A stretch of DNA of 64,000 nucleotides, taken from Propionibacteriaceae bacterium (GTDB lineage: Bacteria; Actinomycetota; Actinomycetes; Propionibacteriales; Propionibacteriaceae). Under the pieces are notes generated by a model. That model saw only the letters and a program-made list of their open reading frames with translations. It did not search any database and was not told the origin of the DNA. The stretch lies in the NCBI GenBank assembly GCA_031265875.1, contig JAISCA010000043.1, forward strand, positions 1-64,000, in the 5' to 3' direction. Of the stretch, positions 7,582 to 61,212 are shown one piece after another. Made by a program: the position numbers and the translations under genes. The first letter of the stretch is position 1; every line of letters starts with the position of its first letter.

Positions 7582-7603
7582 GTGGAGCTAACGGGACTCG
7601 AAC
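7582..7603. repeat. att core repeat in the tRNA-Ala 3' end (attR)
   Basis: Identical to 440-461; covers the acceptor 3' strand and T-arm of the tRNA, so recombination restores an intact tRNA. Confidence 0.85.
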
Positions 7604-7655
7604 CCGTGACCTGTTCGTTGCGAACGAACCGCGCTACCACCTGCGCTATAGCCCC
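7583..7655 (-). tRNA. tRNA-Ala (CGC)
   Basis: The reverse complement folds as a complete 73-nt cloverleaf: GGGGCTA acceptor strand paired with TAGCTCC, discriminator A, D-arm GCGC...GCGC, anticodon stem GTTCG/CGAAC with loop TTCGCAA (anticodon CGC), and T-arm ACGGG/CCCGT with TTCGAGT loop. No CCA is encoded. It is the integration target of the element to its left. Confidence 0.95.
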
Positions 7656-11204: not shown

Positions 11205-11709
11205 GACATACCTCGATCCTTCATAGACGCTGGCTCCATCGCCACCGCGCTGTCCTAGGGGAACGCCAATCGATCACCTGCTGTCATCAGACGCCGGGAG
11301 GAAGGCGGTCACAGCGTGTTCGAGCAGGCGTAGCTCCGTTAGTCACTACGTTGACGGGCGCTCACGCGCCTTTCGCGCAGCCTGACGGAGACTGATCAGA
11401 GTGTCCCTAGAGATGATTTGCCGCCCATATTAGGTAATTAGACCACCGAGGTCAACCGTTATTTGACTCGTTGTGAATACCCTGAGGAGCGGCTCCTCGG
11501 CCTGTCGGAGCGCCTCACCCGACGTATCGGTCGCGGGCGGATCGAAGTCGTCACTCGCCTCGCCCTCGCACTAGCGGTGAACCGACCCGGCTGGACCAGG
11601 TGGATCGGCTAATCGATTGACCCTCTCGGTGGACCAGACTCCGCCCATCACCCGTCCGGATGCTTTCTGCGTAAACGTCAGGAGATCTTCTCACCTGGAA
11701 AGGGCAGCC
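11205..11709. other. Intergenic boundary between host genes and the accessory island
   Basis: About 500 bp without a supported gene between divergently transcribed genes. A near-perfect GAGGAGC-G-GCTCCTC hairpin lies around 11482-11496. Two promoters must lie here, but no clear -35/-10 pair could be placed. Confidence 0.4.
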
Positions 11710-14058
11710 ATGATTAACGAACACTACGCCGAGTCGACGGACCGCACCATCGCAACCATTCCTCACCCGCCGGTCGCCTGTCGGCACTTCCGTTTGAAGG
11801 GGCTGGTCGGCCGTCATGATCCGGCCAAAGCGGCCAGTTGGGCGGTCGAGAACTTGTACAACGCGGTCTCGGAGTGGCCGACCGACTCGATGCTGGCCCT
11901 AATCATCGCCCGCCATAAGAAGGCCATCCGCATCGGCGGTTGGGTCAACGACGCGGCGCCGGCCGACTGGCTGATCGACCTGGCCTACGCGCTGGGACCG
12001 ATCGCCCAGGTCAGGCCAGCGGAATCCTCGCCCGCGCTCGCCACCCCACTCCTGGAGGTGGTGCCGGCTCGGACCGACCAAGGCGAAGCGCTGGAGGGGT
12101 TCGCTGAGCCTGACACGCCTCAATTAAACAACCGTGATTCTGGACGCGACGCCGTGCCCGTGCATAAGAACGATCCCATGTGGGAGTTCCTGTCGGTGCT
12201 ACGGACGGTGCCCGGCGCCGCCATGGGCGTCTTCGTCTCCCCCGCTTCCGGCCTGGAGCAGCAGATGTCCGACTCATCTTGGCGGGCCGCTTTCCAGGGC
12301 AGTTCCAGAGTGGAATGGCAGATGTACCGGGGCACCCCGATCCGCACTCGCGTGATTCTTTACGGTGACTGTCCCGAAATACCCGCCCGTCTGCGCGCGG
12401 AGTTGAAGATCATGTCTCAACGGATCGCCTTCTCAGCGCTGACCGGACAAGACCGGCTGGAGTTACGGCAACCGACCGTGGATTCGATCAAGGGTTTCGC
12501 TGTGCCGAAACAGGTCTTCCGCGCCTTGGTCCATCTCCCGGCGGCTGGACCGAACCGGCCGGCGCCTGGCTTGAAGGTGCTACCCCCGGAACCACGCCTA
12601 GTCCCTTACGACGCCCCGACCCGGCCGGCCCAGGCCTTCCGGTTGGGACGGTGCGTGAACTCGCACGGTCAGCGCCGCCCGGTCTGGATCTCTCCGTCAG
12701 ACATGTGCCGCCATATGCGTTTCGTCGGCTCCACCGGATCCGGCAAGTCCACTGCGATCCGAGGCTTGCTCGGCCCGATGATCGATGACGGCTACGGAGT
12801 TCTGCTGTTGGACCCGCACGGCAGCCTCTGCGCGGATCTGATGGGAGACATCGGCGACCCCGACCGGGCTTTGTACGTCGATTACTCCGACCCCACCGCG
12901 ACCGTGCCCTTCAACGCCCTACGTGGGAGGACGGCAACCGAGTTCGAGGCCCGCCTCCAAGCCTTCATCAACATCATCATGGACCGGGACTCCGATCAAT
13001 ACACCGGGCCGCGCTGGCGGCGCGCGATCGGCCTGGCCGCCCGTGGCTGTCACAAGCTCTTCGGTGAGCGCTGCTCGTTGGTGGCTGTCTTCTCCGTCCT
13101 GGGCAGTCCTGAACTGGCCCAGGCCTTAGCCGACGCGGTCAAGCCCATCGATGAGCCGCTGTCAGGGCAGATCCGTCACGAACTGGCCAACTTGACTGGC
13201 TCCAGCAACTCTGACCTGTGGCCGTGGTTGGTCTGCAAGGGCGAAGAGATCCTCGGTTCGGCGGCGCTCGGACGTATCTTGGGCACGGGCGCGCACGCCG
13301 TGGATTTGGTCGAAGCCATGGACGACTCCCGCGCCGTCCTAGTCAATCTTGGCTTGGCTGAGTTGGGAGAACGCTCGGCCCAACTCCTGGGTTGTCTGTG
13401 GGTGGCGGAACTGCGCCAGGCGATGCTGGAGCGCCAGCGCCGCGACCAGCCCTTCATCATAGCCATCGACGAAGCCCACTTGTTCCAGTACGGCGCCCTG
13501 CCTTCACTGCTGGACGAGGCCCGCAAGTTCGGCGTCGGCGTCATCGTCTGCCACCAGCGCCCGGACCAACTCCGCTTCCAGCTCAAGGACGCCCTCTCAG
13601 CCAACGCCGGCAGCTACATCCAGCTCCGCACCGGCAATCCGCAGGACGCGGCCCAGGCCTCCAAGATGTTGAACGGTTGGCCGCTCGACGACTTGACGCG
13701 CTGCCGCGACCTGACCGGCGTGGCCGTGCTCTCGCGCGACGGGACGCCCTCCGAGCCGTTCTCCATCGAGTTCGACTTCTTCAAGCGGAACGCCGAACGC
13801 CTAGCCGACGCCGAACTGCGGCAGTGGCGCACGGAGCGAGTCTCCTCGACCTCACGCCAGGCCCTGGTCGAGCCCTACGCCGACTGGCGGCCGATCAGCC
13901 GCGACACCATCGTCCAGGACCTGCGCGAGGCACGCTCCCAGAACCGGGGCCAGCGCATCGCCGAGCTGAAGCAGTCGTACCGCCCCCGCCCTCGGCGGGA
14001 CGAACCCGGCGCTCACTCCCAGGCGCCCGCCGGGCTGAGCGATGACGCATTGCTATAA
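11710..14058 (+). CDS. HerA/VirD4-like hexameric ATPase
   Basis: The 782-residue product is a FtsK/HerA-clade pump ATPase like those of type IV transfer systems. Walker A is GSTGSGKST (340-348, after RHMRFV), then LLLDPHGSL, the Walker B FIIAIDEAHLF (Asp587, Glu588), an arginine/His-rich GVIVCHQRPDQL and a sensor-like AGSYIQLRTGNPQDA. The first 300 residues are family-specific and hold no membrane helix. GAAAGGG before ATG 11710 supports this start over one 93 bp upstream. It opens the left block of the island, followed 33 bp later by small genes and a ubiquitin-like pathway locus. It may thread DNA or protein, but no relaxase or T4SS channel gene lies in the window. Confidence 0.85.
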   Translation: MINEHYAESTDRTIATIPHPPVACRHFRLKGLVGRHDPAKAASWAVENLYNAVSEWPTDSMLALIIARHKKAIRIGGWVNDAAPADWLIDLAYALGPIAQVRPAESSPALATPLLEVVPARTDQGEALEGFAEPDTPQLNNRDSGRDAVPVHKNDPMWEFLSVLRTVPGAAMGVFVSPASGLEQQMSDSSWRAAFQGSSRVEWQMYRGTPIRTRVILYGDCPEIPARLRAELKIMSQRIAFSALTGQDRLELRQPTVDSIKGFAVPKQVFRALVHLPAAGPNRPAPGLKVLPPEPRLVPYDAPTRPAQAFRLGRCVNSHGQRRPVWISPSDMCRHMRFVGSTGSGKSTAIRGLLGPMIDDGYGVLLLDPHGSLCADLMGDIGDPDRALYVDYSDPTATVPFNALRGRTATEFEARLQAFINIIMDRDSDQYTGPRWRRAIGLAARGCHKLFGERCSLVAVFSVLGSPELAQALADAVKPIDEPLSGQIRHELANLTGSSNSDLWPWLVCKGEEILGSAALGRILGTGAHAVDLVEAMDDSRAVLVNLGLAELGERSAQLLGCLWVAELRQAMLERQRRDQPFIIAIDEAHLFQYGALPSLLDEARKFGVGVIVCHQRPDQLRFQLKDALSANAGSYIQLRTGNPQDAAQASKMLNGWPLDDLTRCRDLTGVAVLSRDGTPSEPFSIEFDFFKRNAERLADAELRQWRTERVSSTSRQALVEPYADWRPISRDTIVQDLREARSQNRGQRIAELKQSYRPRPRRDEPGAHSQAPAGLSDDALL

Positions 14059-14090: not shown

Positions 14091-14201
14091 ATGATCAAAC
14101 TCGATAGACAGTTCCTGGCCGACCTCGGCCTGGAGAGCGTCACCACCAGCACACCGGATGCAGATTGCGTATCCATTCATGCTTCATCCCTATCGAGCTA
14201 A
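14091..14201 (+). CDS. 36-residue protein, DUF5663-like N terminus
   Basis: A short open frame beginning MIKLDRQFLADLGLES and rich in Ser/Thr after residue 18, with one Cys. GAAAGG precedes the ATG, and its TAA runs into the AAGGAGG of the next gene, which argues for a real small gene. The start resembles the FLxDLGL opening of DUF5663-type proteins found beside transfer ATPases, but the usual remainder is missing. It could be a truncated relict or a peptide substrate. Confidence 0.45.
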   Translation: MIKLDRQFLADLGLESVTTSTPDADCVSIHASSLSS

Positions 14202-14213
14202 GGAGGCCCAACC

Positions 14214-14426
14214 ATGAAGCACAGCGCCATCCACCAGATCATCAGCCAAGGCGGCGAAGAGATCCCTGCGGGGACCTTCCACGGCGGCGAAGAGATCCCG
14301 GCCGGCACTTTCCACGGCGGCGAAGAGATCCCAGCTGGCACCTTCCACGCTGGTCTCGTCCAATGCCCGAAGTGCAAGCACTGGTTCGCCCGCGACAGCT
14401 ACCGCTGGCGGACGCACAGCTGCTGA
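14214..14426 (+). CDS. 70-residue repeat peptide with terminal zinc-finger-like motif
   Basis: Residues 13-45 are three exact copies of GGEEIPAGTFH, encoded by three 33-bp units that differ only at synonymous sites. The tail carries CPKCKHWFARDSYRWRTHSC, a CxxC...HxxC arrangement that could bind zinc. A perfect AAGGAGG precedes ATG 14214. Synonymous divergence between units shows selection on the peptide. It precedes an E2-like gene and a JAB-E1 fusion, so a substrate, modifier or adaptor role is possible. It does not have a recognisable beta-grasp. Confidence 0.75.
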   Translation: MKHSAIHQIISQGGEEIPAGTFHGGEEIPAGTFHGGEEIPAGTFHAGLVQCPKCKHWFARDSYRWRTHSC

Positions 14427-14520: not shown

Positions 14521-15069
14521 TTGAACTCGCCTGTGACCGAAGCCCAAGCCCGCCAGGTCGGCCGTTGGAGACACATCAGATACCGCGCCTGGCCGACCAA
14601 ACGTGACTACTCGTTCACCTTCGAGCACCTGGAGGGCGGCTGGCGGGTCTACCTCGACAGTTCACCCGACTACCACGGCCGGCCTTCCGGCAGCCTTGAG
14701 AGCCACCGGCTCGACATCGGCGGACGACCCTACATCTGCTGGGACCGTACGCTCTCGACCATCTCCGAGGCCCAAGCCGTCGCCGCTCTGTGGGCGGACT
14801 CGACCGAGAACTACATCGCGACCGGACGCTTCGAACCAGCCCGGGGCCGGCCCCAGGTCCAAGACCGCACCGTTCTCAACGGCTACCCAGCTTCGTCTAG
14901 ACCAGCGCCGCCCGCCCCAACCCGACCGGCCCCCGTTCCAGCGCTGCCCGCCCCAGCCCGACCGGCCCCTGTTCCGGCCCCCGTTCCGGCGCCGGCCGAC
15001 CCGGCCCCACCGCCGCAACCGCGCCAGTCGCTGTGGTCCCGCGTCAAAGACCAACTCTTCGATTACTAG
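14521..15069 (+). CDS. E2-like (UBC-fold candidate) protein, soluble paralogue
   Basis: The 182-residue protein has a conserved domain (1-105), then a long Pro/Ala-rich linker and a short amphipathic tail (QSLWSRVKDQLFDY). The domain shows E2 landmarks in order: a W-rich strand (GGWRVYLDSSPDY), Y51..P55, His62 (ESHRL), Cys73 (RPYICW) 11 residues later, and a helix with Trp91 (AVAALWADSTENYIATG). In E2 enzymes the HPN His and the active Cys are about 10 apart. Its paralogue at 51163-52005 aligns without gaps and keeps His62 and Cys73. TTG start with GAGAGGAA. It sits directly before the JAB-E1 gene. Fold assignment is by eye. Confidence 0.55.
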   Translation: MNSPVTEAQARQVGRWRHIRYRAWPTKRDYSFTFEHLEGGWRVYLDSSPDYHGRPSGSLESHRLDIGGRPYICWDRTLSTISEAQAVAALWADSTENYIATGRFEPARGRPQVQDRTVLNGYPASSRPAPPAPTRPAPVPALPAPARPAPVPAPVPAPADPAPPPQPRQSLWSRVKDQLFDY

Positions 15070-15082
15070 GAGGAACTTCACT

Positions 15083-16747
15083 ATGACCAGCCGTCGTATT
15101 CCCTGCCCTTTCTGCCACATCCGCTCTTGGTTCATTCCCGACGCCACAGCGCGGATGAGCGTACGGCCGCAACGGATCACACGCCTGACCCCGGAAGATC
15201 TGTCCACTGGCATGTCCTTCGCCATCACCCACGAGGCCTACGACCTGATCGCCCGCACCATCGGCCGACGACCGGCCGAGACCGGCGCCGTGCTGGGCGG
15301 CTGCCGAGCCCAGGGACTCGTCACCCACGTCCACCTCGACCACAGCGCCGACGTCAGCGGCGTCACTTACTCACCCGACATCGACGTCGTCAATCGGCTC
15401 TTACGTGAGGAATGGGACCCCGCCGGCGTCGACTTCATGGGTTTCGTGCACAGCCATCCCGGCGGCTTCGCCCGACCCTCTCAGGGCGACCAGATTTACG
15501 CTGAACGCATCCTGCGGGCTCTGCCGCAGCTGGACCGCCTGGCCCTGCCCATCGTCCAGACCATCCCCGACACCGGAATCTTCCGGATGAAGGGCCACAT
15601 GGCGGTGCGCACCGGCCAGTCCGAGACTCCGGGCTGGTTGAGTCGGGGCCGCCTGCCCGAGAACGGACGCTCCGTGCGGGTCCTGGAGGCCCCGCTCGTG
15701 ATCCTCGATCCCGATCAGCTCTACGAGCGTCCGCGGCCGAACCCGTTCCTGGGCCGGGTCACCAACGCTTACGACCCCGCGGTGATGGCGTCCACCCGGA
15801 TCGTCGCCATCGGCGTAGGCGGTTCCGTCGGCTACCTAGAGACGATGGCGCGCGGCGGCATCGGTCAGTTCGTGCTGATCGACCCGGACGTGATCGAAGC
15901 GAAGAACGTCGGCACCCAAGCCGTCGACCCGCTCGACATCGGCCGGCCCAAGGTGGATGCCCTGGCCGACAGGCTGGCCCGGCTCAACCCGAACTGCCAC
16001 GTTTGGACCATCCCAGCCCGGGAGGACGCCATCGACGATTCTGGCTTCCATCGCTTGCTGCGCGAGCCACTGCCAGGTGGTCCTGAAGCCCTGCCCGCCA
16101 CCACCCTGCTGTGCGCCTTCACGGACAACTTCCTGGCCCAAGACCGCGTCCAGCGGCTCGGCCTGCATTTCGGCCTGCCCACGCTGGCGGCGGCAGTCTA
16201 CAAGGAGGGACGCGGCGCCGAGTTGGCCTTCGCGGCCCCCGGCCTGACCCAGGCCTGCATCCGCTGCGCCCAATCGGCCCGCTACCGCTCCGTGCTCAAA
16301 GAGGGCACCAGCGGCGAAGAGACCTCCGACGGCACGCCCTTTCTGGCCACCGACCGTCTCAACGCCACCAAGCAGATGGTCACGCTAGGGCTGCTGCACG
16401 CCCTCAACCCGATCGCCCAAGCCGACCATCCCGCCACCGTCCGCTGGCGCCGGGTGATGGAGTGTCTGAGGGACCGTAACCTCGACCTCACCCGGCTGGA
16501 CCCGGACAGCCCCTTGCCCTCGTTCAGGCCGCTCGACGACATCGCGGATGGACGTTGCGTGCTGGACGAGACGGTCTGGACCAAGCCCAGCCCGGACGGG
16601 CCGGACTCCCCCGGCGGAGCTTGCCCCGATTGCGGTGGCACAGGCGACCTGACCGACGCTGTCGGCGCCTTCCGCGACACCCGCGCCATGCCCCTGGTCT
16701 ACGGCCAAGAACGCCGGGGCAGCCGCGCAGTCGCTAAGGCCGCCTGA
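15083..16747 (+). CDS. JAB metallopeptidase-E1 (ThiF-type) fusion
   Basis: The 554-residue protein fuses a deubiquitinase-like and an E1-like domain. The JAB/MPN part has Glu66 (ETGAVLGG) and the HSHPGGFARPSQGD motif (His123, His125, Asp136), a complete JAMM zinc site. The E1/ThiF part has the nucleotide loop GVGGSVG (244-250), VLIDPD (Asp267), EAKN, RPKVDAL and a zinc pair ACIRC; a second CPDC lies near the C terminus. E1 enzymes adenylate the C terminus of ubiquitin-like proteins and JAB peptidases process or remove them. AGGAGG precedes ATG 15083, 13 bp after the E2-like gene. I could not identify an obvious E1 catalytic Cys. No ubiquitin-like gene is recognised nearby. Confidence 0.88.
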   Translation: MTSRRIPCPFCHIRSWFIPDATARMSVRPQRITRLTPEDLSTGMSFAITHEAYDLIARTIGRRPAETGAVLGGCRAQGLVTHVHLDHSADVSGVTYSPDIDVVNRLLREEWDPAGVDFMGFVHSHPGGFARPSQGDQIYAERILRALPQLDRLALPIVQTIPDTGIFRMKGHMAVRTGQSETPGWLSRGRLPENGRSVRVLEAPLVILDPDQLYERPRPNPFLGRVTNAYDPAVMASTRIVAIGVGGSVGYLETMARGGIGQFVLIDPDVIEAKNVGTQAVDPLDIGRPKVDALADRLARLNPNCHVWTIPAREDAIDDSGFHRLLREPLPGGPEALPATTLLCAFTDNFLAQDRVQRLGLHFGLPTLAAAVYKEGRGAELAFAAPGLTQACIRCAQSARYRSVLKEGTSGEETSDGTPFLATDRLNATKQMVTLGLLHALNPIAQADHPATVRWRRVMECLRDRNLDLTRLDPDSPLPSFRPLDDIADGRCVLDETVWTKPSPDGPDSPGGACPDCGGTGDLTDAVGAFRDTRAMPLVYGQERRGSRAVAKAA

Positions 16748-16904: not shown

Positions 16905-18233
16905 TTGTCTAACTTGACCATCGCCAGCCGCACCAGCCTGGCCGCCCTGGAGGAGCGCTCACGCGCCACCTGCGTCGTCTTCACCGACCATCCGCTGCCC
17001 ACCGGCGTCCAACCGGCCGCCGGGGACATCGGGTTGGAGAGCGCTGAAACGTCCACCCTGCTGCACGTCAGACGCGGCTTCACCTACGACGGAGACGACG
17101 CCGAAGTCAGCCACTGGATCGAGACCGGCACCCGGTCCTTCGCCAGTCTGGCCGACTGCGTCGCCTGGCTACGGGCCAAGCTGCCCGCGCCCGCCCCCGC
17201 CCAGCGGGCGCCGCAGTCAGCCCTGGCCGAGCCCAGGATCGCCCGCCTGCCCGTGGACCAAGTCACTGAGCTGGACCAGGTCGACCTCGACTTGCCGCCG
17301 GCCCCGACCCCCCAAGATCTGGAGACGATCCTGTCCCAGCAGGTCTTGGGCCAGGACTCCGCCGTACGCGGCCTAGCCGAACTGGCCGCCCACCATGTGG
17401 CCAAGCCATACCCACGCCGGCCCGCCTCCGCCCTTCTGATCGGGGCCACGGGCACCGGCAAGACGCTGGCCGCCGAGCAGTTGGCGCTGCATTTGACCAG
17501 TTCCACCGGCTCGACTTGGTCCTATGAACGCCTCGATCTGAACGAGTTCTCCGAGAAGCACAGCGCCGCCCGGCTGTTCGGCGCCCCGCCCGGCTACATC
17601 GGCTACGACGACGGCCGTGACCTGGCGGCCACGCTACGGGCCAACCCCCGCACCGTGGTGGTGCTCGACGAGATCGACAAAGCCCACCCCCAGCTGTGGC
17701 GCTCCCTGATGAATCTGATGGACGCCGGCCGCTTGAGCGGCCAAGCCGGAGACATCGACGCCCGCCAAGCCATCCTGCTGCTGACCTCGAACAAGGACGC
17801 CGCCGCCATCCAGCCCCTGGCCGACGCCCCAGACGACCGGCTGCGCGCCTTCCTGCGCGACCACGGCTACCCGCCCGAGATCGTGGGCCGTCTGGGCCGG
17901 ATCCTGGTCTTCCAACCGCTCACGGCGGACATCACCGCCCGCCTCATCGTCCTGACCGTCCAACGAGTCGTGGAGTCTTGGGGCTTCCAGCTACAGCGCA
18001 TCGCCCCCGAAGCCGTCACCGCCCTGGCCCACCGCGCTCCCTTGCAGACCGGCGGGCGCGACGTCGAGCACTTCATCGAGCGCGAACTGTCCCCGGGCTT
18101 GGCCAGCCTGAACGGAGTCGGATCTGCGGTCAGCGTCGACGAATCCATGCTAATCACGGCCGAGGTACTGGCCGAGTCGCCCATGGACGGCACCGACCAG
18201 TTGAATCAACCCGACGAAAGGACAGCACCATGA
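16905..18233 (+). CDS. Single-module ClpA/ClpB-type AAA+ protein
   Basis: The 442-residue protein has an unrecognised N-terminal domain (1-130) and one AAA+ module of the Clp D2 type: VLGQDSAVRGL, Walker A GATGTGKT (180-187), the pore-loop region LFGAPPGYIGY, Walker B VVVLDEIDKAH, sensor 1 LLTSNKD and a small C-terminal domain. Clp unfoldases normally have two modules or a ClpX zinc domain; neither is present, and no ClpP-binding loop is seen. TTG start after GAAAGG. It probably unfolds or remodels a partner of this locus, plausibly conjugated proteins. Overlaps the next gene by 4 bp (ATGA). Confidence 0.85.
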   Translation: MSNLTIASRTSLAALEERSRATCVVFTDHPLPTGVQPAAGDIGLESAETSTLLHVRRGFTYDGDDAEVSHWIETGTRSFASLADCVAWLRAKLPAPAPAQRAPQSALAEPRIARLPVDQVTELDQVDLDLPPAPTPQDLETILSQQVLGQDSAVRGLAELAAHHVAKPYPRRPASALLIGATGTGKTLAAEQLALHLTSSTGSTWSYERLDLNEFSEKHSAARLFGAPPGYIGYDDGRDLAATLRANPRTVVVLDEIDKAHPQLWRSLMNLMDAGRLSGQAGDIDARQAILLLTSNKDAAAIQPLADAPDDRLRAFLRDHGYPPEIVGRLGRILVFQPLTADITARLIVLTVQRVVESWGFQLQRIAPEAVTALAHRAPLQTGGRDVEHFIERELSPGLASLNGVGSAVSVDESMLITAEVLAESPMDGTDQLNQPDERTAP

Positions 18234-39299: not shown

Positions 39300-39633
39300 G
39301 TGTTCTCGATTCTGGCCTCCCTCATGCCGCAGACCTCGGGCCGGTGACCGTCAGAAGTTCGGTCGTCCACCTTCCAGACACTGTGGCAAGGACACGGCTC
39401 GCTCTGTCGACCTACGTGATGCCAGATCGTGCGCGGACGATCATTTTTACTGTGGGGACGTAGACCGCGACAGCCCTGATAGCCGAGCGGGCGGCGAGGC
39501 CGCGCCGTGTCGCCCTCCCGTCAGACCCGATGACGCCGCCTCTACGCGGCCCGACCGGGCCGTGGATGCGGTTTGCGTTTATAGAGGTGATCCGTCCAGA
39601 ACAATACCACAACCTTAAGAAAGGAGGTCTCCC
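39300..39633. other. Intergenic region before the envelope block
   Basis: 334 bp with no supported gene. GGCCCGACCGGGCC near 39551 is palindromic, a TTTATAGA near 39580 could be a -10, and a strong AAAGGAGG precedes ATG 39634. Confidence 0.35.
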
Positions 39634-40332
39634 ATGGAGAACACCTTCAATCCCTACACCCGACGAGTCCTGTCGGAGGGCCGCTTCCCCTTCTCGGTTC
39701 CCAAAGAGACGCTGACCGCCCGCGACGAACGGGCGATCCAACGCGCCGCCAAAGCGGAGAGAGCCCGTCTGTTGCGACTCGACCCAGGAGAGATGACCCC
39801 GGTCATGCGCCTATATCAGGACACCTGCCAAGCTGGACAAATTGAGGTTCACCGCCAGCGGGTGGAGCATGTGCGGAACGTCATCGAGCGGCGCACGCGC
39901 GCTGAAGCAATCTTCGACCGGGATCCTGTGCCGCCAGAGCCGGAGATCGCCCCCGTTCCGCCGGCGTCAGGTCTGGATCGTCAGGTCTGGCTCGCCGACA
40001 AGCGTCGCGCCATCCGAGCCCAGTCGGAGCTGAACCGCCGGGAGGAGGAGATTTACGAGGCCAGGATCATCATCGAGGTCTGTGGCACCGACCTCGAAGC
40101 CATCGACTACTTAGCCAGCTTCGCGCTTGGTCAATGGGCATCCCACTATAAAGTCCTCTTCCAACTCCACATGCACGCCGCCATCGGCCGCAATAACGAG
40201 AATCCGACGCTCCGTCATCTTGAATTCAACGCCTACCAACCACTCGACACCGGCCTCGAACCGCTCTCACTCGAGGCGTCGGGACCCAAAGCGACCCGGG
40301 CCTTGGAAGCCAATCGGGTCGATCCCGAGTGA
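39634..40332 (+). CDS. Helical protein of unknown function
   Basis: The 232-residue protein is highly charged and helical, rich in Arg/Glu/Ala, with a Pro-rich hinge (PVPPEPEIAPVPPASG) near 108. A C-terminal region (ALGQWASHYKVLFQLHMHAA) is more hydrophobic. AAAGGAGG with a 7-nt gap marks ATG 39634. It opens a five-gene block leading to envelope proteins, suggesting a cytosolic or peripheral partner. No family recognised. Confidence 0.65.
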   Translation: MENTFNPYTRRVLSEGRFPFSVPKETLTARDERAIQRAAKAERARLLRLDPGEMTPVMRLYQDTCQAGQIEVHRQRVEHVRNVIERRTRAEAIFDRDPVPPEPEIAPVPPASGLDRQVWLADKRRAIRAQSELNRREEEIYEARIIIEVCGTDLEAIDYLASFALGQWASHYKVLFQLHMHAAIGRNNENPTLRHLEFNAYQPLDTGLEPLSLEASGPKATRALEANRVDPE

Positions 40333-51162: not shown

Positions 51163-52005
51163 CTACCGGAGCCGGGGTCGCTGGGAAAGGCCCCGATACC
51201 AGGCAAAGCGGCGTGCTGCGGCGATGGCGTACTGGACGCCGTTGGCCACGCCCAACCACAGGGACGCCGCCCAGAACAATCCGGGGGCAGCCCCGCTCAG
51301 CGCGGTGAGGCCGAGCAAGACCACAGAGACGGCGTAGGCGATGGGCCAGCCGCGCCCGCCCGGCTCGAACTCGGCCTGGATGACCGATACGACTGCGCCG
51401 GCCAACGCGCCAGCCATCCAGAGGAAGTCCCAGAAGCCGAAGCCGTTGCGCATGCAAACGACCCAGAACAGCCCGCACAGGCTGAGGGCGATCAGTCCGG
51501 CTCCCCAGAGCCGGAAGCCGAAGTCCTCGTGCCAGGCCCGCCGGACGGCGTCGACGGGAGCCGCCGTACGGAAGATGGCAGCGGTGGGGGAAGCGGCCCC
51601 CGTGCGGAAGGTGGCCGGCACGGCTGAGGCGGCCGGGGCGAAGTCTCCCAGCACCGAGCGGTCCTGGACAGCCGGCCGGTTGGGCGGCGCCTCGAAGCGG
51701 CCAGTGGCGATGTAGTGCTCGGTGCAGTCGGCCCACAGGGCGGCCACGCCTTGGGCGGCCGAGATAGTCGGCAGGGAGTTGGTCCAACAGATGTAGGGGC
51801 GGCGGCCCAGGCCGAGACGGTGGGTCTCGACGCTGCCCGCAGGACGACCCCTGTAGTTGGGCGAATTGTTGATATAGACCCGCCAGCCGCCACCTTCGTA
51901 TTTGAACGTGAACGAATAATCCCGACGAGTCGGCCAGGCGCAGTATTTGATATCGCGCCACTCGCCCTTTTGACGGGCTTGCGCCTCATTGATGGACGTG
52001 GGCAT
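51163..52005 (-). CDS. Membrane-anchored E2-like paralogue
   Basis: The 280-residue protein repeats the 105-residue domain of the left-block E2-like protein without gaps: EAQARQ, CAWPTRRDYSFTF, GGGWRVYINNSPNY, His62 (ETHRL), Cys73 (RPYICW), GVAALWADCTEHYIATGRFE. A Pro/Ala/Thr linker follows, then about four membrane helices (LWGAGLIALSLCGLFWVVC, FLWMAGALAGAVVSVI, IAYAVSVVLLGLTALSGA, LFWAASLWLGVANGVQY). GAGGAG precedes ATG 52005. It is divergent from the RNA polymerase operon with 218 bp between. The shared domain links this end of the island to the JAB-E1 locus 35 kb away. A localised partner or substrate-recruiting module is likely. Confidence 0.65.
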   Translation of the reverse strand: MPTSINEAQARQKGEWRDIKYCAWPTRRDYSFTFKYEGGGWRVYINNSPNYRGRPAGSVETHRLGLGRRPYICWTNSLPTISAAQGVAALWADCTEHYIATGRFEAPPNRPAVQDRSVLGDFAPAASAVPATFRTGAASPTAAIFRTAAPVDAVRRAWHEDFGFRLWGAGLIALSLCGLFWVVCMRNGFGFWDFLWMAGALAGAVVSVIQAEFEPGGRGWPIAYAVSVVLLGLTALSGAAPGLFWAASLWLGVANGVQYAIAAARRFAWYRGLSQRPRLR

Positions 52006-52223
52006 GTCAACTCCTCTTCGAGTCGGTGTTCGGGGGCTTTGCCAGCAGGCGGCTACGAGTCAATACGACCGGTGAAAAGCGGAACCGTCGGTGATGAACC
52101 GGCCAAGGCCTGGGCCGCCCGGCGGCGGGGACGAAGTGACCCAATGGTCACACCAACCCCTTACGCAATCAGCATCCAGAGCTAGTACGCTTTGACGCGG
52201 CGGCGACGACGAAGGAGTCCTCC
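52006..52223. promoter_or_regulatory. Divergent promoter of the RNA polymerase operon
   Basis: 218 bp between divergent starts. GTGACC-CAAT-GGTCAC (52136-52151) is a perfect 6-bp inverted repeat with a 4-nt spacer, a candidate operator. No consensus sigma-70 promoter was obvious. AAGGAG lies before ATG 52224. Confidence 0.45.
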
Positions 52224-55200
52224 ATGAGCAGCGAGCCATTCACGCCGGCCCAGGTCCCCCAGCTGACCGGTGATGACTGCCGCCAGTTGCTGGCGGAGGC
52301 CGCCGCCGCGCTGGTGTCACGGGAGATCGAGGGCACGGTCACGGCCACGGCGTCGGCGCTGGGGCGGCCCGAATGGCTGCCCTGCCAAAGCCGCCGGGGG
52401 CCGTCGTACCAGTGGGTCGCTCCCCTGGATGTCACGTTCATGTCCGAGGGCGTTCAGACCACGGCCCGGCTCGATTGGCCCGTGCCCTGGGAGCGTGAGG
52501 ACGGCAGCGTCTGTCTGACGGTCACCGGCGAAGAACCGGTGCGGCCCGGCCGCCACGCCGGCCTCTACATCGGCGCTCCGCTGGCCGTGGGGCAAGGGGT
52601 CCGGCTGCGACCCGGTTTGCACGTCATCCCCCGTCCGACGCCGAGCGGCGGCTGGAAGCTCGACCTGGTGGTGGCGTCGCGGCTGGGGATGGACGTATAC
52701 GGCGGCGCGGACAAAGACTCCACCTGGGAGAGGCTGTCCTGGGCCGTGCTAGGGAAGCTGCCGGGCCGATACGTCGACGACGCCCTGCGGGCGGAGATGT
52801 CAGCCTCGCTCGGGCTCGAGCCCGACACTCAAGACCGCGACTTGATCGCCAATCTGCTCCGAGCCATCTCGGTTCTGCCTGAGCATCGCGCCAGTCCCAA
52901 AGCCTTGACCTTCGTCCAGGAATCCTGCGCCGGGATCGAGCCCCGGGTGGTCGATCCCCTGTCGGAGCCCCGCCGGACGGCGGCCTCCCGTAACCGGCTG
53001 TTCGGCGGGGACGAGGCCATGGCTGAGCTGGTTTACGCCCGCCTGGCTAAGAGCACCACCCAAGTCTCGGCCCAGACAGACGGCCTGAAGGCCTGGCTGG
53101 AGGACGTCTCAAGCCGGCTGTCCCGGGCCACCGAGGCGGCTTCGGCCGCCCTGGCCTCCGGTCGAGCCGGTGTGGTCTCCGTCGTCGGCCGGGTCGACGA
53201 GGGCATGACGTTGACGCGGGTGGAGCAGGCCGCGCGGACCTGTTTCATCGGTTTCCGGGGGGTGGGCCGGATTCGAGGCCGGGCCGACCTGCGCGACTTG
53301 GAGCCGGGCTGGCGCGGCGCCTTGTGCCCGGTTCAAACGCCGGAGTCGAAGGACACCGGCCTGGTGCGCTACTCCACCGTCGGCGCCCGGGACGACGCGC
53401 CGCTCGAGCTGAGTGACTGGTTCGACCTGTCGGCCAGCGCGGCGCTGATCCCCTTCATCAACCACGACGACCCGGCCCGGGCCTCCATCGGCTCGAAGAA
53501 CTTGAAGCAAGCGGTTCCGGTGGATGGGCGCCAGCCGCCGCTGGTGGCGACCGGCTGGGAACAGGTCCTGGGATCGGCGGAAGGCGTCGCCCGGGCCCCG
53601 GAAGCCGGCCGGGTCTCAGCGATCGAGCCGGGCTTCATCATGATAGAGACCAATCGCCGCTCGCTCACAGTGGCCACGGACGCCCCCTGGCAGCGGCGAT
53701 CGCAGGTCGACAACGAATGGTTCGTCGACGTCGAGGTCGGCGACCAGGTGCGGGCCGGACAGATCCTGGCCCACGCGCCCGATGTCAAGGTGCTGGATGA
53801 GGCTAAGACGAAGGCCGAGTTATGTCTCGGCGTCAACGCCTTGGTGGCCCTGACGCCCTGGCATGGCCTGAACTACGAGGACGGCATCGTGGTCAGCCAG
53901 TCGTTCGCCGACCGCATGGGGTCGACCCACATCGTCCGGATCGATGAGCCGAGAGCGGCTGAGGATTCAGTCACCTGGTTGATCAATCCCCGATCGAAGG
54001 AGCCCGTCCCCGTTGAGGCCGGTGAGGCCATCCTGCTCGTCACCCGGCCGGGTGGACGTACGGACACAGTCCGCTCGCCTGTGACCGGACAGCTAATGGA
54101 AGCCTTCCTCGACAACACCAATGGCTTCGTCTCGGCGCTGATCCAGGTGCGCCGGCCCCTGGCAGTGGGTGACAAGCTGTCCAACCGCCACCAGGGCAAG
54201 GGCGTGGTCAGCGCCATCCTGCCGGACGACCAGATGCCTCGCTTGCCCGAGAACGTCCTGGGCGGCCGGGCGGTCGAGGTCATCCTCAATCCCGTGGGCG
54301 TGCTGCGCCGGCTCAACATCGGCCAGCTCTGGGAGATGCACGTCGGGCTGGAAGCCCTCTTGACCGACGGCCAGCCGCGCCGGGTCTCACGGGTCGTCGA
54401 GGCTCCGGCGGCGCTGGGCCAGGCTCTAGCCCAGCTGGGGGCGCCACGCGGTCGGATGAAGCTGACCTTGCCGGACGGCAGGCTCTTGGGCGGCGCGGAC
54501 GGCGTCGTCGTCGGGCCGCAATACATCATGAAACTGAACCATCTGGCCGCCGCCAAACTGTCGGTCCGGGACGGGCAGCCGTCCAAGTCCCCGGTCACCG
54601 CTCAACCCAGCCAAAGCCGCCGCTTCCAGCACGACCACTGGGTCGGCTCGGCCCAACGGCTCGGCGAGATGGAGGTCTGGGCGCTGGAGGCGGCCGGCGC
54701 CCAGGAAGTCTTAGCCGACGCCTTCCAAGTCCGTTCCGCGCCCCGGGACTGGGCCAAGGGCAAGCCCCGCGCCTCGCTGCGCAGCGTCCAAGCCCACCTG
54801 GCGGTCGGCGGCCTGAAACTGGCCGTCAACGACACCGGCCTCCGCGCTCTCCAGGACGTCTCCGCCTCTGAAGTGCGGGCGCTGACCCCGCTGTGGCGAG
54901 AAATCTACTACCCCAAGCTACCCCACTGGCGGGAGTTGGGCCGCTGGGACAGGCCCGCCTCGCAGTCCGACCTGGCGGCGCTGAGGGCAGCCTTCGGAGC
55001 CAAAGTAGGTGACTCGAATGAACCGGTCTACGCCGGCGGCGACCCGTTGTACCGATCCGACGAGCATGGCCGCGCCGGCAGCCCCAAGTCGGAGCGAGTG
55101 CTCTACGCTATCCCGTTGCCGCGCTCCATGCCTCATCCTTGGAGCACTAAGAAGGGACCGACCCTCCCGCCGCTGACCGCCGTCCCGGTTCTGCCGCCCG

Positions 55201-57386
55201 CCTTCCGCGTGGCCACACCGATCCGGCGCGGCTTAGACCGGGCCTACCAAGACCTGGCCTGGCTGCTTGTCGAGTACGACCGGGTGGTTAAAGCTGGCCC
55301 CAAGAACCAGCTCTGGCCGCTGTGGAGCCGCATCCAGGACCGGGTCAAGGCGATCCTCGGCGCCTGGCCGAAGCCGGAGCCGGACAGTGTCTTGGCCCGC
55401 CTGTCCGGCAAACGTGGCCTGCTGAGCCGTTACCTGCTAGGGCAGTCGGTCACTCACTCGGGCCGGGCCGTCATCGTGCCCGACCTGAATTTGCAGCCAG
55501 ATCAGGTCGGATTGCCGCGCTTGCTAGCCCTGGGCCTCGGCCTCAACGGTCTCGACCCGGACGACGACGTGGTGATCGTGAACCGGCAGCCGTCGCTGCA
55601 TCCTTACAACCTGGTGGCGCTGCGGGCCAAGCTGATCGACGACGACGCCATCCATCTGCATCCGCTTTGCCTGGGCGGCCTGGCGGGCGACTTCGACGGC
55701 GACACGGTGGCCGTGCATCGTCCGGTCACGCCCGCGGCCCGGCGAGACGCCTGGGAGAAGCTGTCTCCCGCCAGCCGGATCAGGTCGTCGGCCAACGGCG
55801 GCGTCTTGGCCAAGATGGATCTCGACATCGCCCTCGGTCTCTACCGGGCCAGCCGGTCCGGCTCCCTGCCCGCCGCCCTAGCCAGCACTGGTCTGGTCCT
55901 GGACTCCGACCATCTACCTCAGGCGGTCAGCGACCTGGTCTCGTCAACGTCCGATCCGAACGAAGCCCTGCGCCTTTTGGACGAGGTCGAACGAGCCGGT
56001 TTAGACGCTGCCGTGGGCTGGTCCATCGGGGCGCTGGATCTGCTAGCCGACGGGGAGCGAGGCCACCTGGCGGCCGCGCTGGCGGCAGGCGTGGCCGGCG
56101 GCGAGAAAGCCGTCAAGCAACTCTTGCGGGCGAGAGGCGGGCTGAATGAACACTCGGGGCATCCGAACTCGGTGGTACCAAACGTCGCTGGCTGTTATCT
56201 GACCGGCCTGAGCAGCGATGACTATTTCAACACCGCCCCTGTGGCCTTGGCCGAATTGGCCCACAAGAAGTTGACCACGCCTCGGGCGGGCCAGTTGACG
56301 AAGGAACTGGTGGCGATAGCCGACGCGGTCGTGATCTCTCAGACTCATTGCGAAACCGACGCGCCGGTGCGCTCCCCCTTGACCTGCTCGTCCGAGGCAG
56401 GCGTCTGCCAGGCCTGTTACGGAGCCGACCCTGGATCGGGCGCCCCGCCTCAGGTCGGGAGCCGGATCGGTCTGCTAGCCGCGACCGTGATCGGAGAACG
56501 GTCGACCCAAGATGCCATGAAGGCATTCCAGGGCGGTGGCGGACGGGGCGAAGCGCTCGGCAACGCTCTGGACGACCTCTACGCCATCTTCGGACTGGGG
56601 CGTTCCGTCGCCCTCGACCTCGCTCGGGACGATCAGCCCGGCCGACCGCTCAAGCTGAGCGAGTTCCTGGCCGCCCAAGGCGACCTGGGCGACCCGCGCC
56701 AGCGAGCCCAAGCTCTCCAGCCCCTAGTCGACCTGGCGGTGGCCAAACTGGGCGGCCAGGTGGCGGCGGTCCATGTGCAAGTGATCCTCAAACAACTGGT
56801 CGACGCCTTCATATTGCAACGCCCCACACCGCCCAAGGGCTATTCAGACCACCCCACGGTCACGCTGGAACCGACCGGCGACACGTTCGCGGTCAAACGA
56901 TCGAAGGCCGACCGGGTCGATCCCGAGTTGGAGCCGTTCATCGCCTCAGTCATCGCCCTGTTGACGAAGTGGTCGCCCATCGTCCTGCCTCCCGAATCGG
57001 GCCACCGTCTCGTGGCGGTCAGGCTCAAGCCGATGGCCAGCCGTTGGGGCAGTCACAGCCGGAAAACCCAGAGATTGAGTCTGAACCTGAAGCTAGCCGG
57101 CCGGGATCCGAGACTGTTGGAGTGTCTCATCGTCCACGAGCTGACCCACTTCTACGGCCAGGGCCATGGCCCCGACTGGCAGGCGCGCATGAACGCCCAC
57201 CTGCCCGGCTGGCGGCTCCGGGAATTGGAGCTGCGACCAGGCGACCTGGCGACTTTCGCCCAGCGCCGGGAACGATCCGCCTTCGAGACGGCCACCACCC
57301 GCGGCGATGTGTCAACGCTGACAGACACGGGCGAACCGGGCGTCGGAGGCCTGCGAACCAAACTTGTGGTGGGAGGACTGTCATGA
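52224..57386 (+). CDS. Single-chain RNA polymerase (beta/beta-prime fusion) with C-terminal YgjP-like metallopeptidase
   Basis: The 1720-residue protein contains hallmark parts of both large RNAP subunits in order. Beta: LNYEDGIVVSQSF (about 550), the double-psi barrel lysines in GDKLSNRHQGKGVVS (Lys651, Lys659), NPVGVLRRLNIGQLWEMH, and QRLGEMEVWALEA (about 810). Beta-prime: AVPVLPPAFR, LSRYLLGQSVTHSGRAVIV, NRQPSLHPYN, the Mg site LAGDFDGDTVAVH (Asp1156, 1158, 1160), the zinc cluster CSSEAGVCQACYG, and trigger-loop IGLLAATVIGERSTQDAMKA. A DUF45/YgjP-type metallopeptidase follows: SRWGSHSRKTQRLSLNLKL, VHELTHFYGQGHGPDW (His1638, Glu1639, His1642). The RNAP part (~1550 residues) is far shorter than host beta plus beta-prime. 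No alpha, omega or sigma gene is nearby. AAGGAG before ATG. Confidence 0.9.
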   Translation: MSSEPFTPAQVPQLTGDDCRQLLAEAAAALVSREIEGTVTATASALGRPEWLPCQSRRGPSYQWVAPLDVTFMSEGVQTTARLDWPVPWEREDGSVCLTVTGEEPVRPGRHAGLYIGAPLAVGQGVRLRPGLHVIPRPTPSGGWKLDLVVASRLGMDVYGGADKDSTWERLSWAVLGKLPGRYVDDALRAEMSASLGLEPDTQDRDLIANLLRAISVLPEHRASPKALTFVQESCAGIEPRVVDPLSEPRRTAASRNRLFGGDEAMAELVYARLAKSTTQVSAQTDGLKAWLEDVSSRLSRATEAASAALASGRAGVVSVVGRVDEGMTLTRVEQAARTCFIGFRGVGRIRGRADLRDLEPGWRGALCPVQTPESKDTGLVRYSTVGARDDAPLELSDWFDLSASAALIPFINHDDPARASIGSKNLKQAVPVDGRQPPLVATGWEQVLGSAEGVARAPEAGRVSAIEPGFIMIETNRRSLTVATDAPWQRRSQVDNEWFVDVEVGDQVRAGQILAHAPDVKVLDEAKTKAELCLGVNALVALTPWHGLNYEDGIVVSQSFADRMGSTHIVRIDEPRAAEDSVTWLINPRSKEPVPVEAGEAILLVTRPGGRTDTVRSPVTGQLMEAFLDNTNGFVSALIQVRRPLAVGDKLSNRHQGKGVVSAILPDDQMPRLPENVLGGRAVEVILNPVGVLRRLNIGQLWEMHVGLEALLTDGQPRRVSRVVEAPAALGQALAQLGAPRGRMKLTLPDGRLLGGADGVVVGPQYIMKLNHLAAAKLSVRDGQPSKSPVTAQPSQSRRFQHDHWVGSAQRLGEMEVWALEAAGAQEVLADAFQVRSAPRDWAKGKPRASLRSVQAHLAVGGLKLAVNDTGLRALQDVSASEVRALTPLWREIYYPKLPHWRELGRWDRPASQSDLAALRAAFGAKVGDSNEPVYAGGDPLYRSDEHGRAGSPKSERVLYAIPLPRSMPHPWSTKKGPTLPPLTAVPVLPPAFRVATPIRRGLDRAYQDLAWLLVEYDRVVKAGPKNQLWPLWSRIQDRVKAILGAWPKPEPDSVLARLSGKRGLLSRYLLGQSVTHSGRAVIVPDLNLQPDQVGLPRLLALGLGLNGLDPDDDVVIVNRQPSLHPYNLVALRAKLIDDDAIHLHPLCLGGLAGDFDGDTVAVHRPVTPAARRDAWEKLSPASRIRSSANGGVLAKMDLDIALGLYRASRSGSLPAALASTGLVLDSDHLPQAVSDLVSSTSDPNEALRLLDEVERAGLDAAVGWSIGALDLLADGERGHLAAALAAGVAGGEKAVKQLLRARGGLNEHSGHPNSVVPNVAGCYLTGLSSDDYFNTAPVALAELAHKKLTTPRAGQLTKELVAIADAVVISQTHCETDAPVRSPLTCSSEAGVCQACYGADPGSGAPPQVGSRIGLLAATVIGERSTQDAMKAFQGGGGRGEALGNALDDLYAIFGLGRSVALDLARDDQPGRPLKLSEFLAAQGDLGDPRQRAQALQPLVDLAVAKLGGQVAAVHVQVILKQLVDAFILQRPTPPKGYSDHPTVTLEPTGDTFAVKRSKADRVDPELEPFIASVIALLTKWSPIVLPPESGHRLVAVRLKPMASRWGSHSRKTQRLSLNLKLAGRDPRLLECLIVHELTHFYGQGHGPDWQARMNAHLPGWRLRELELRPGDLATFAQRRERSAFETATTRGDVSTLTDTGEPGVGGLRTKLVVGGLS

Positions 57387-60305: not shown

Positions 60306-60465
60306 GTCTCCTCCGGCGTCAGTATGCCTCATGTCACCCCAGGCCACTCACACCCGGCTTCACAGCCCACCGGATGCTTTCTGCGTAGTGCTGGTCACAG
60401 CCAAACCTGTGTCCGCTGGCCCCTGACGAGGCGACGGACCATGAATGAAAATGAAAGGGACCGCC

Positions 60466-61212
60466 ATGTCCACCGAACTCATCACCGCCCCCAGCCCGGC
60501 GACCATGCCCAAGCGCCTCCATCTCAGCCTCGTGTCAGAAGTGTCGAAAGGGTCGGTCCCGGCCCGCCAACGTCCGCTCAAGGCGGTGGCGCCGAGGCAT
60601 CAGGTCCGGCTGCACCCCAAGGGCTGCTGCTGCAATTACCACAATCCGAACGGACCTTGGAGCATCCCACTGTCCCTGAACAATAAGACGGCGCTGCTGT
60701 CGAAGCGTCCGAAGTTAGTGGTCTGGGACGTCGAGAACTGGCAAGGCAATCCGAGAGTCTCCCCGCTCAATGTGGCCAGGGACTTCCGCTTCTGCCGCTC
60801 GGTCCTGGGACTGACCCGACAGGACTACGTCATCTTCGGCATGTCCCACTTCACGGCCAAGCGCTGCTCGTTCGCGCTGCCGACCAACCAATCGGCCCTG
60901 GTGATCGGCAGCGGTCCCGACGGGGCCGACAAGGCCCTAATCGAAGCGGCCGACCTGCCACGCCTGTCCCAGCACTACGGCACCCTCGTGGTGGTCAGCA
61001 ATGACCACATCTTCACCGACCTGGCCCGGCGGGCCAAAACCTTCGGCTTGACGACATGGCACGTCTCGACGGATCAATCGGAGTGGGGCTGCGACACCCG
61101 CGCCGCCTACGACGGTTGGACCCACATCAAGCTCAACGCGGTCCGTGAGCGGGCCAAGGCTCAGGCTCAAGAGCGAGCCGAGCGTCGCCGCGCGGCGGCG
61201 GCGACGAAGTAG
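60466..61212 (+). CDS. NYN/PIN-like ribonuclease
   Basis: The 248-residue protein has a NYN domain from about 80: VVWDVENW with Asp88, SGPDGADKALIE with Asp152 and Asp155, and VVVSNDHIFTDLARRAKTFG near 181-200, the acidic PIN-fold metal site. NYN enzymes cleave RNA. The N-terminal part has a CCC-containing basic patch (HPKGCCCNYHNPNGPW) and the C terminus is a charged helix. GAAAGGG precedes ATG 60466. Next to an RNA-polymerase operon, it could process that enzyme's transcripts. Last gene of the island. Confidence 0.8.
   Translation: MSTELITAPSPATMPKRLHLSLVSEVSKGSVPARQRPLKAVAPRHQVRLHPKGCCCNYHNPNGPWSIPLSLNNKTALLSKRPKLVVWDVENWQGNPRVSPLNVARDFRFCRSVLGLTRQDYVIFGMSHFTAKRCSFALPTNQSALVIGSGPDGADKALIEAADLPRLSQHYGTLVVVSNDHIFTDLARRAKTFGLTTWHVSTDQSEWGCDTRAAYDGWTHIKLNAVRERAKAQAQERAERRRAAAATK

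Follow-up and report, generated by a model that had tools for sequence, protein, structure and literature searches.

A single-chain RNA polymerase encoded with a predicted sigma54-like factor and an AAA+ activator-type protein on a bacterial island

The usual picture of bacterial transcription is a single core RNA polymerase (RNAP) that works with interchangeable sigma factors; private RNAPs have been described in phages. What, then, might a second RNAP, written as a single gene, be doing on a chromosomal island of a Propionibacteriaceae bacterium? The question is raised by a stretch of 64,000 nucleotides (assembly GCA_031265875.1, contig JAISCA010000043.1, positions 1 to 64,000; hereafter the window). 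A first-pass annotation of this DNA treated a metallopeptidase domain within the RNAP as its key feature and mentioned neither the two genes downstream, one predicted to encode a sigma54-like factor and one a protein resembling bacterial enhancer-binding proteins (bEBPs), nor a common promoter-like motif. We consider it likely that the RNAP, the sigma54-like factor and the probable AAA+ activator, encoded in one operon, would jointly transcribe island genes from this motif, GGATGC-N3-Y-TGCGT (Table 1).

The polymerase and its peptidase insert

Is the protein an RNAP? The open reading frame (ORF) starts with ATG and encodes 1,720 amino acids that match the Pfam families Rpb2_6 (E = 3.6e-32), Rpb1_2 (3.6e-18) and Rpb1_5 (1.2e-7), with further matches to Rpb2_7 and Rpb2_3 below cut-off. 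A profile of 35 relatives (P0001–P0035, window protein included) aligns with solved bacterial β and β′ chains in the PDB. Since some of the β matches begin at profile position 71–74, the N-terminal part, which has no Pfam name, is probably a reduced β lobe/protrusion. The GDK, RH and second K of the β double-psi β-barrel (DPBB) motif are present in all 35 aligned relatives, and zinc-binding cysteines 1376, 1388, 1395 and 1398 are invariant. With DPBB motifs, bridge/trigger region and Zn2 site all found, the protein is, by its sequence, the large subunits of a two-barrel, multisubunit-type RNAP.

Much of the first-pass annotation thus stands: the ORF is real and joins RNAP and peptidase (PF01863) domains, the β lysines (GDKLSNRHQGKG), DFDGD and zinc cluster are where it saw them, and profile searches place the protein inside the RNAP large subunits. 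Its statement that all catalytic residues are intact holds for the DPBB motifs, the zinc site and the peptidase HELTH but not for the trigger-loop His, which is Gln in the window protein (across the 35 rows, His in 24, Gln in 9 and Arg in 2). Nor is the RNAP part unusually small, as had been thought, since the 31 relatives without the peptidase are 1,477–1,808 residues long and its size is ordinary for the family.

What does the peptidase contribute? The YgjP domain scores 58 bits against a cut-off of 26, and HELTH at residues 1638–1642 (57135–57149), with a further His at 1648, supplies HExxH and the third His. Although described as C-terminal, the domain is followed by about 50 residues of β′ tail that also occur in relatives without the peptidase and include G1694, invariant across the 35 rows. 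In an alignment with host rpoC, YgjP sits between the "..ILKQLVDAF" stretch and the tail equivalent to SAASFQETTKVLTDAA, an insertion point that would lie near switch region 1, at the base of the clamp. Because only 4 of the 35 aligned relatives (P0001–P0004) carry YgjP and these form one clade (Shimodaira–Hasegawa-like approximate likelihood ratio test, 100; quick tree of 49 rows), the domain was probably gained once and is optional. All four bearers have the trigger-loop Gln. Their HExxH sites read HELTH, HELAH, HELAH and HALAH, so that three are intact and one (P0004) has lost the Glu; loss of catalytic residues in close homologues, which the first-pass annotation had named as evidence against its own view, is therefore seen in part. 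We picture YgjP as an optional insert beside the β′ tail, whose most plausible role may be to cut proteins met or carried by the polymerase.

The downstream genes and the promoter-like motif

RNAP, sigma54-like and AAA+ genes occur in the same order in three loci from metagenome-assembled genomes (MAGs): L016 (Bifidobacteriaceae), L017 (Micropruina) and L018 (unclassified bacterium, COS4_bin_33). In L017 (9850–17727), the RNAP and AAA+ genes are broken over several frames, through sequencing error or decay. The 326-residue factor, searched without its first Met or as a 310-residue database form (P0121), is predicted by structure modeling to contain the extra-long helix–helix-turn-helix (ELH-HTH)/DNA-binding fold of sigma54. 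In another locus, L203, the equivalent position is occupied by a sigma54 that Pfam recognizes (Sigma54_DBD, E = 3.3e-14). The sigma54 identity is thus a prediction drawn from fold, gene order and the L203 relative, and not from the sequence of the window protein. In L203 and L024 (Poribacteria), single-chain RNAPs adjoin sigma54-activator-type ATPases; the L203 sigma54 lies between the two, and L024 has two activator-type genes upstream of the RNAP and an acidic 308-residue gene downstream.

The AAA+ protein belongs to a sharply bounded family, with 21 proteins at E ≤ 1.6e-131 and the next at 3.8e-40 among the best 120 of 7,996 candidates. Walker A, Walker B, the AATNR sensor and the arginine finger are present in 21 of 21 members, and the GN[FV]RE motif in 19 (EN in P0140 and P0145). 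At the site of the GAFTGA loop, the Phe position is aromatic in 19 members, P0136 and P0142 being the exceptions, and P0147 (GVFTGI) and P0144 (GVWTGA) are near-canonical. No C-terminal helix-turn-helix (HTH) family was matched by Pfam. For 11 of the 22 closest RNAPs the longest contig is exactly as long as that of an AAA+ family member, and we take each such pair to be contig-mates. According to the available text of PMC3162934, bEBPs without a DNA-binding domain exist and Actinobacteria are without a sigma54 system; that of PMC12316311 describes Actinomycetota as effectively without RpoN and GAFTGA as invariant in sigma54-specific enhancer-binding proteins.

From where would such a polymerase initiate? 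Searching for repeats showed that the HerA-like and NYN genes are preceded by one and the same 18-mer. The refined pattern GGATGC-N4-TGCGT matches exactly at five places in the window; the average over 100 shuffles is 0.04. Because the pattern was derived from the window, that count is post hoc, and the independent part is formed by the counts in L016 (two) and L017 (five, and one about 1.6 kb outside it) and by the host background, where the remaining stretches from four host genomes (304,132, 380,000, 154,139 and 171,819 bp) had no match at spacer 4. When spacers of 0–10 were tried in the window, L016, L017 and the stretch outside L017, only 4 was enriched, with 13 matches, and all others together gave 1. 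All 13 have C or T as the final spacer base, hence GGATGC-N3-Y-TGCGT. In 11 of them the motif lies 37–89 nt ahead of a start codon that has a Shine-Dalgarno-like stretch; the distance is longer for the E2-like membrane gene (157 nt) and for the outer copy of a tandem pair in L016 (116 nt). HerA carries the motif in two elements, as does NYN. Two exact matches in 2.36 Mb of other loci (L019–L143), in L026 and L052, are taken as chance. On the operon strand, no motif was found ahead of the RNAP operon in the window, L016 or L017, which would suit a cascade begun by host RNAP.

Weighing the explanations

If the three proteins act together, how would the circuit run? Host RNAP would make the RNAP operon, the sigma54-like factor would bind the single-chain core and the GG/TGC promoter, and the AAA+ protein, with a signal read by its N-terminal region, would open the promoter with ATP. 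The regulon then expressed would comprise the HerA-like ATPase; the PAGTFH small protein with E2-like, JAB-E1 and AAA_2 proteins; the E2-like membrane protein; and the NYN-type protein.

Several observations weigh against this joint action. The GAFTGA loop of the window AAA+ protein reads GMFNDI, and because of this we call the protein bEBP-like, not a bEBP. The 326-residue factor has no Pfam sigma54 match even at E 10, a search in which HMMER filters drop most weak matches. A profile comparison with hhalign, which took eight of the ten sigma54 loci found, two having been dropped by a motif filter, was not significant: it scored 24.1, and the best of 120 single-sequence decoys reached 21.8. 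When compared with sigma54s, the L203 relative reached only 13.9, and the family hidden Markov model did not rank sigma54s above decoys (891 decoy frames). Foldseek E-values to sigma54 are weak, and confidence in the structure model is moderate. The hosts yielded no other sigma54, but for those of L016–L018 this absence is not firm because they are MAGs of unstated completeness. As for the motif, it is enriched, but compared with −24/−12 elements its GG-to-GC spacing is one base under that of canonical sigma54. The copy about 1.6 kb outside L017 comes from a region that initially served as background and was then assigned to the element. The exact motif is absent from L018; a variant occurs three times there and twice in 171.8 kb of its host, having been chosen after looking and with an unclean background. 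The island TIR, STAND, caspase and HD genes have no exact motif, and which polymerase reads the motif is something we infer. Three further results concern the same factor: PDB sequence searches gave nothing significant, the sole Pfam match in its family is bpX5 (E = 0.038, 1 of 10 members), and, for the RpoN box, a nonsignificant profile alignment sets TPFGLAPLWFF on TPHGVFELKYFF.

Could the RNAP instead act without its neighbors? It may be a phage-like, mobile-element enzyme with its own promoter, the 326-residue protein being an unrelated accessory whose likeness to sigma54 reflects no more than a widespread arrangement of helices. In favor of this reading, two-barrel RNAPs are known from phages, in some cases with promoters of their own (PMC5467207 and PMC10770324, in their available parts); parts of the chain are matched by RNAP families of PHROGs, there is a weak match of the HerA-like protein to a terminase PHROG (E = 3e-7), and the sequence support for sigma54 is not significant. 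Given the predicted fold, the order of the genes and the relative in L203, we consider this reading unlikely. A shade less probable is that the sigma54-like and AAA+ proteins serve the host core and that the single-chain RNAP has another task, such as transcribing invading DNA or drawing viral RNAP inhibitors to itself as a decoy. Canonical sigma54 works with host core, and the TIR, STAND, caspase-like and HD genes of the island would fit such a role; however, the three genes overlap and recur together, the RNAP retains its catalytic motifs, and, with no further sigma54 found in these hosts, nothing points to a host core adapted to such a factor.

The idea that the peptidase is the functional point, with the chimera acting as an effector or the peptidase releasing the polymerase or cleaving a regulator, draws on the HExxH and third His intact in three of four bearers and on the supported clade that retains YgjP. 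Since 31 of 35 relatives lack the domain, including the RNAP of L016 (P0008) with the same operon, and one bearer has lost the Glu, we rejected the peptidase as the defining part and regard this idea as very improbable. Joint action of the three operon proteins remains our preferred explanation. With less assurance, we also favor the broader proposal that a complete second transcription system of bacterial type (one-piece core, sigma54-type factor, ATP-driven activator and −24/−12-type promoters) operates, in a phylum that lacks sigma54, as the signal-triggered switch of a ubiquitin-like conflict island, and that it recurs across phyla.

The island, its spread and known systems

Table 1. Coordinates in the window of the polymerase operon, the promoter-like motifs and the predicted regulon
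Feature	Position	Strand	Basis or context
Single-chain β-β′ RNAP	52224..57386	+	ORF, Pfam, 35-row family alignment, PDB profile matches
β DPBB motif GDKLSNRHQGKG, both lysines	54168..54203	+	Residues 649–660
β′ DPBB Mg site DFDGD	55689..55703	+	Residues 1156–1160; 35/35 rows
YgjP metallopeptidase domain inside β′	57000..57236	+	PF01863, E 1.7e-15, residues 1593–1671
β′ C-terminal tail after peptidase	57237..57383	+	Aligned with host rpoC, SAASFQETTKVLTDAA
Predicted sigma54-like factor, 326 residues	57383..58363	+	ATGA overlap with RNAP stop; predicted fold match to sigma54 chains
AAA+ ATPase, sigma54-activator (bEBP/RtcR) type, 539 residues	58360..59979	+	ATGA overlap with sigma54-like gene; PF00158, E 4.1e-32
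Promoter-like motif GGATGCTTTCTGCGT	11658..11672	+	37 nt before HerA-like ATG (11710)
Promoter-like motif GGATGCAGATTGCGT	14156..14170	+	43 nt before PAGTFH small-protein ATG (14214)
Promoter-like motif GGATGCGGTTTGCGT	39564..39578	+	55 nt before ATG at 39634
Promoter-like motif GGATGCTGATTGCGT	52163..52177	-	157 nt before E2-like membrane protein (start 52005, minus strand)
Promoter-like motif GGATGCTTTCTGCGT	60372..60386	+	79 nt before likely ATG of NYN gene (60466)
HerA/TrwB-like ATPase, predicted regulon member	11710..14058	+	PF10412/PF01935; L016 gene 63% identical, also with motif
Small protein, 70 residues, three GGEEIPAGTFH repeats, Cys/His tail	14214..14426	+	Relatives in L016, L017, L018
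E2-like small protein	14521..15069	+	7 copies, C73 invariant; weak fold match to bacterial CdnG-E2
JAB-E1(ThiF) fusion	15152..16747 (start by homology)	+	PF00899, PF14464; 68% identical to that of L016
AAA_2 ATPase	16905..18233	+	PF07724; 63% in L016
E2-like domain with long hydrophobic C-terminal part	51163..52005	-	ORF; motif at 52163..52177 upstream
NYN-like protein	60466..61212	+	PF01936, E 0.0064, below cut-off; L017 relative also with motif

The E2-like domain has no PDB sequence match and no Pfam E2 family; Foldseek gave no E2 among the matches listed (50 of 101), and the E2 matches come only from a second fold comparison (VIA), with modest Z. Small IPAGTFH proteins are located near JAB-E1 and E2-like genes and are possibly peptide modifiers that replace a ubiquitin-like protein. 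They occur in L016 (~5675, minus strand), L017 (~2067 and 6163, both minus) and L018 (2590–2661). IPAGTFH is found three times in the window protein and at the extreme C terminus in L018 and one L017 copy; one L017 copy reads IPAGTFE and IPSGTFH. Between 19244 and 39299 the window holds a conflict-type run without the exact motif (TIR-NPHP3, nSTAND1-pentapeptide, TIR, radical SAM, HD-CE, caspase-like and TIR genes), and HD-CE and caspase relatives also adjoin the RNAP cassette in L018 and L016. A tRNA-Ala gene (7582–7655) has its final 20 nt repeated at 248 and 440, possibly as old attachment repeats; to the right, no such repeat was found up to the end of the contig at 72178.

How widespread is the polymerase? 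The host genome (3.12 Mb, 70 contigs) has its own rpoB and rpoC, in keeping with the first-pass description of a divergent, island-borne copy. Of 57 genomes searched (the host and 56 relatives), only the host has a full-length match. The N-terminal 357 residues match 2 of 198 genomes of the family, the second (G159) having the L017 coordinates and being taken as the Micropruina genome, and a 396-genome phylum search gave five positives, four of them short matches (E 2e-4 to 7e-4) that we did not count as relatives. Plasmid (79) and phage (45) records gave partial matches only, all under 60% identity and none covering 80% of the query (under 35% among the 40 matches listed); because the phage matches are partial and of low identity, a viral RNAP was rejected. 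L026–L054 hold a separate group of single-ORF two-barrel RNAPs, mostly ~990–1240 residues, in Armatimonadota, Chloroflexota, Latescibacterota, Gemmatimonadota and others.

How does the system compare with known ones? With its sigma54-like predicted fold, Sigma54_activat AAA+ domain and promoter-like GG...TGC element upstream of genes, it resembles the sigma54 (RpoN) holoenzyme and its bEBPs, but it has a private single-chain core, a diverged GAFTGA and an Actinomycetota host, and the spacing of its motif falls one base short of TGGCAC-N5-TTGC (the available text of PMC12316311 gives TGGCACN5-7TTGCT as the consensus). RtcR is the nearest named relative of the AAA+ protein (NCBIfam, E = 1.5e-37, far under its cut-off); only the AAA+ part matches, with no C-terminal HTH matched, and RtcA and RtcB were not specifically searched for. 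Like natural rpoB-rpoC fusions (NCBIfam PRK09603 and PRK14844), the protein has β and β′ in one chain, but those models are longer (2,890 and 2,839 positions) and an ordinary fusion was rejected, as the protein scores far below their cut-offs (248.6 against 5,372 bits and 228.5 against 4,632). In fusion-bearing lineages, the fusion is the cell's only RNAP. YonO of the SPbeta prophage and the P23-45 RNAPs are likewise single-chain enzymes that are related to cellular RNAP but separate from that of the host. YonO is ~100 kDa, against ~1,550 RNAP residues here. For the P23-45 RNAPs two distinct promoter motifs have been proposed (PMC10770324), and the available parts of PMC5467207 and PMC10770324 mention no sigma54-like factor or AAA+ activator such as those predicted for the island.

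The island also resembles operon type 6e of Iyer et al. (2006; PMC1779556, available part), in which JAB is mostly fused N-terminally to E1 beside an extra small repeat protein in certain actinobacteria, but type 6e has 70–75-residue ubiquitin-like domains where the island has a 70-residue PAGTFH-repeat peptide. "RNA polymerase" occurs 0 times in the text of PMC1779556. Among the titles and abstract openings listed by full-text searches of open-licence PMC papers, none described an island single-chain RNAP with a sigma54-like gene and activator, or an RNAP-YgjP chain, which is weak evidence of absence.

If our reading is correct, a chromosomal island would form an orthogonal transcription circuit, perhaps untouched by inhibitors of host RNAP, and sigma54-type control would be seen to work even where the core is a reduced single chain. 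The regulation of a JAB-E1/E2-like island would then have a logic, and the circuit might serve as an orthogonal tool for gene expression.
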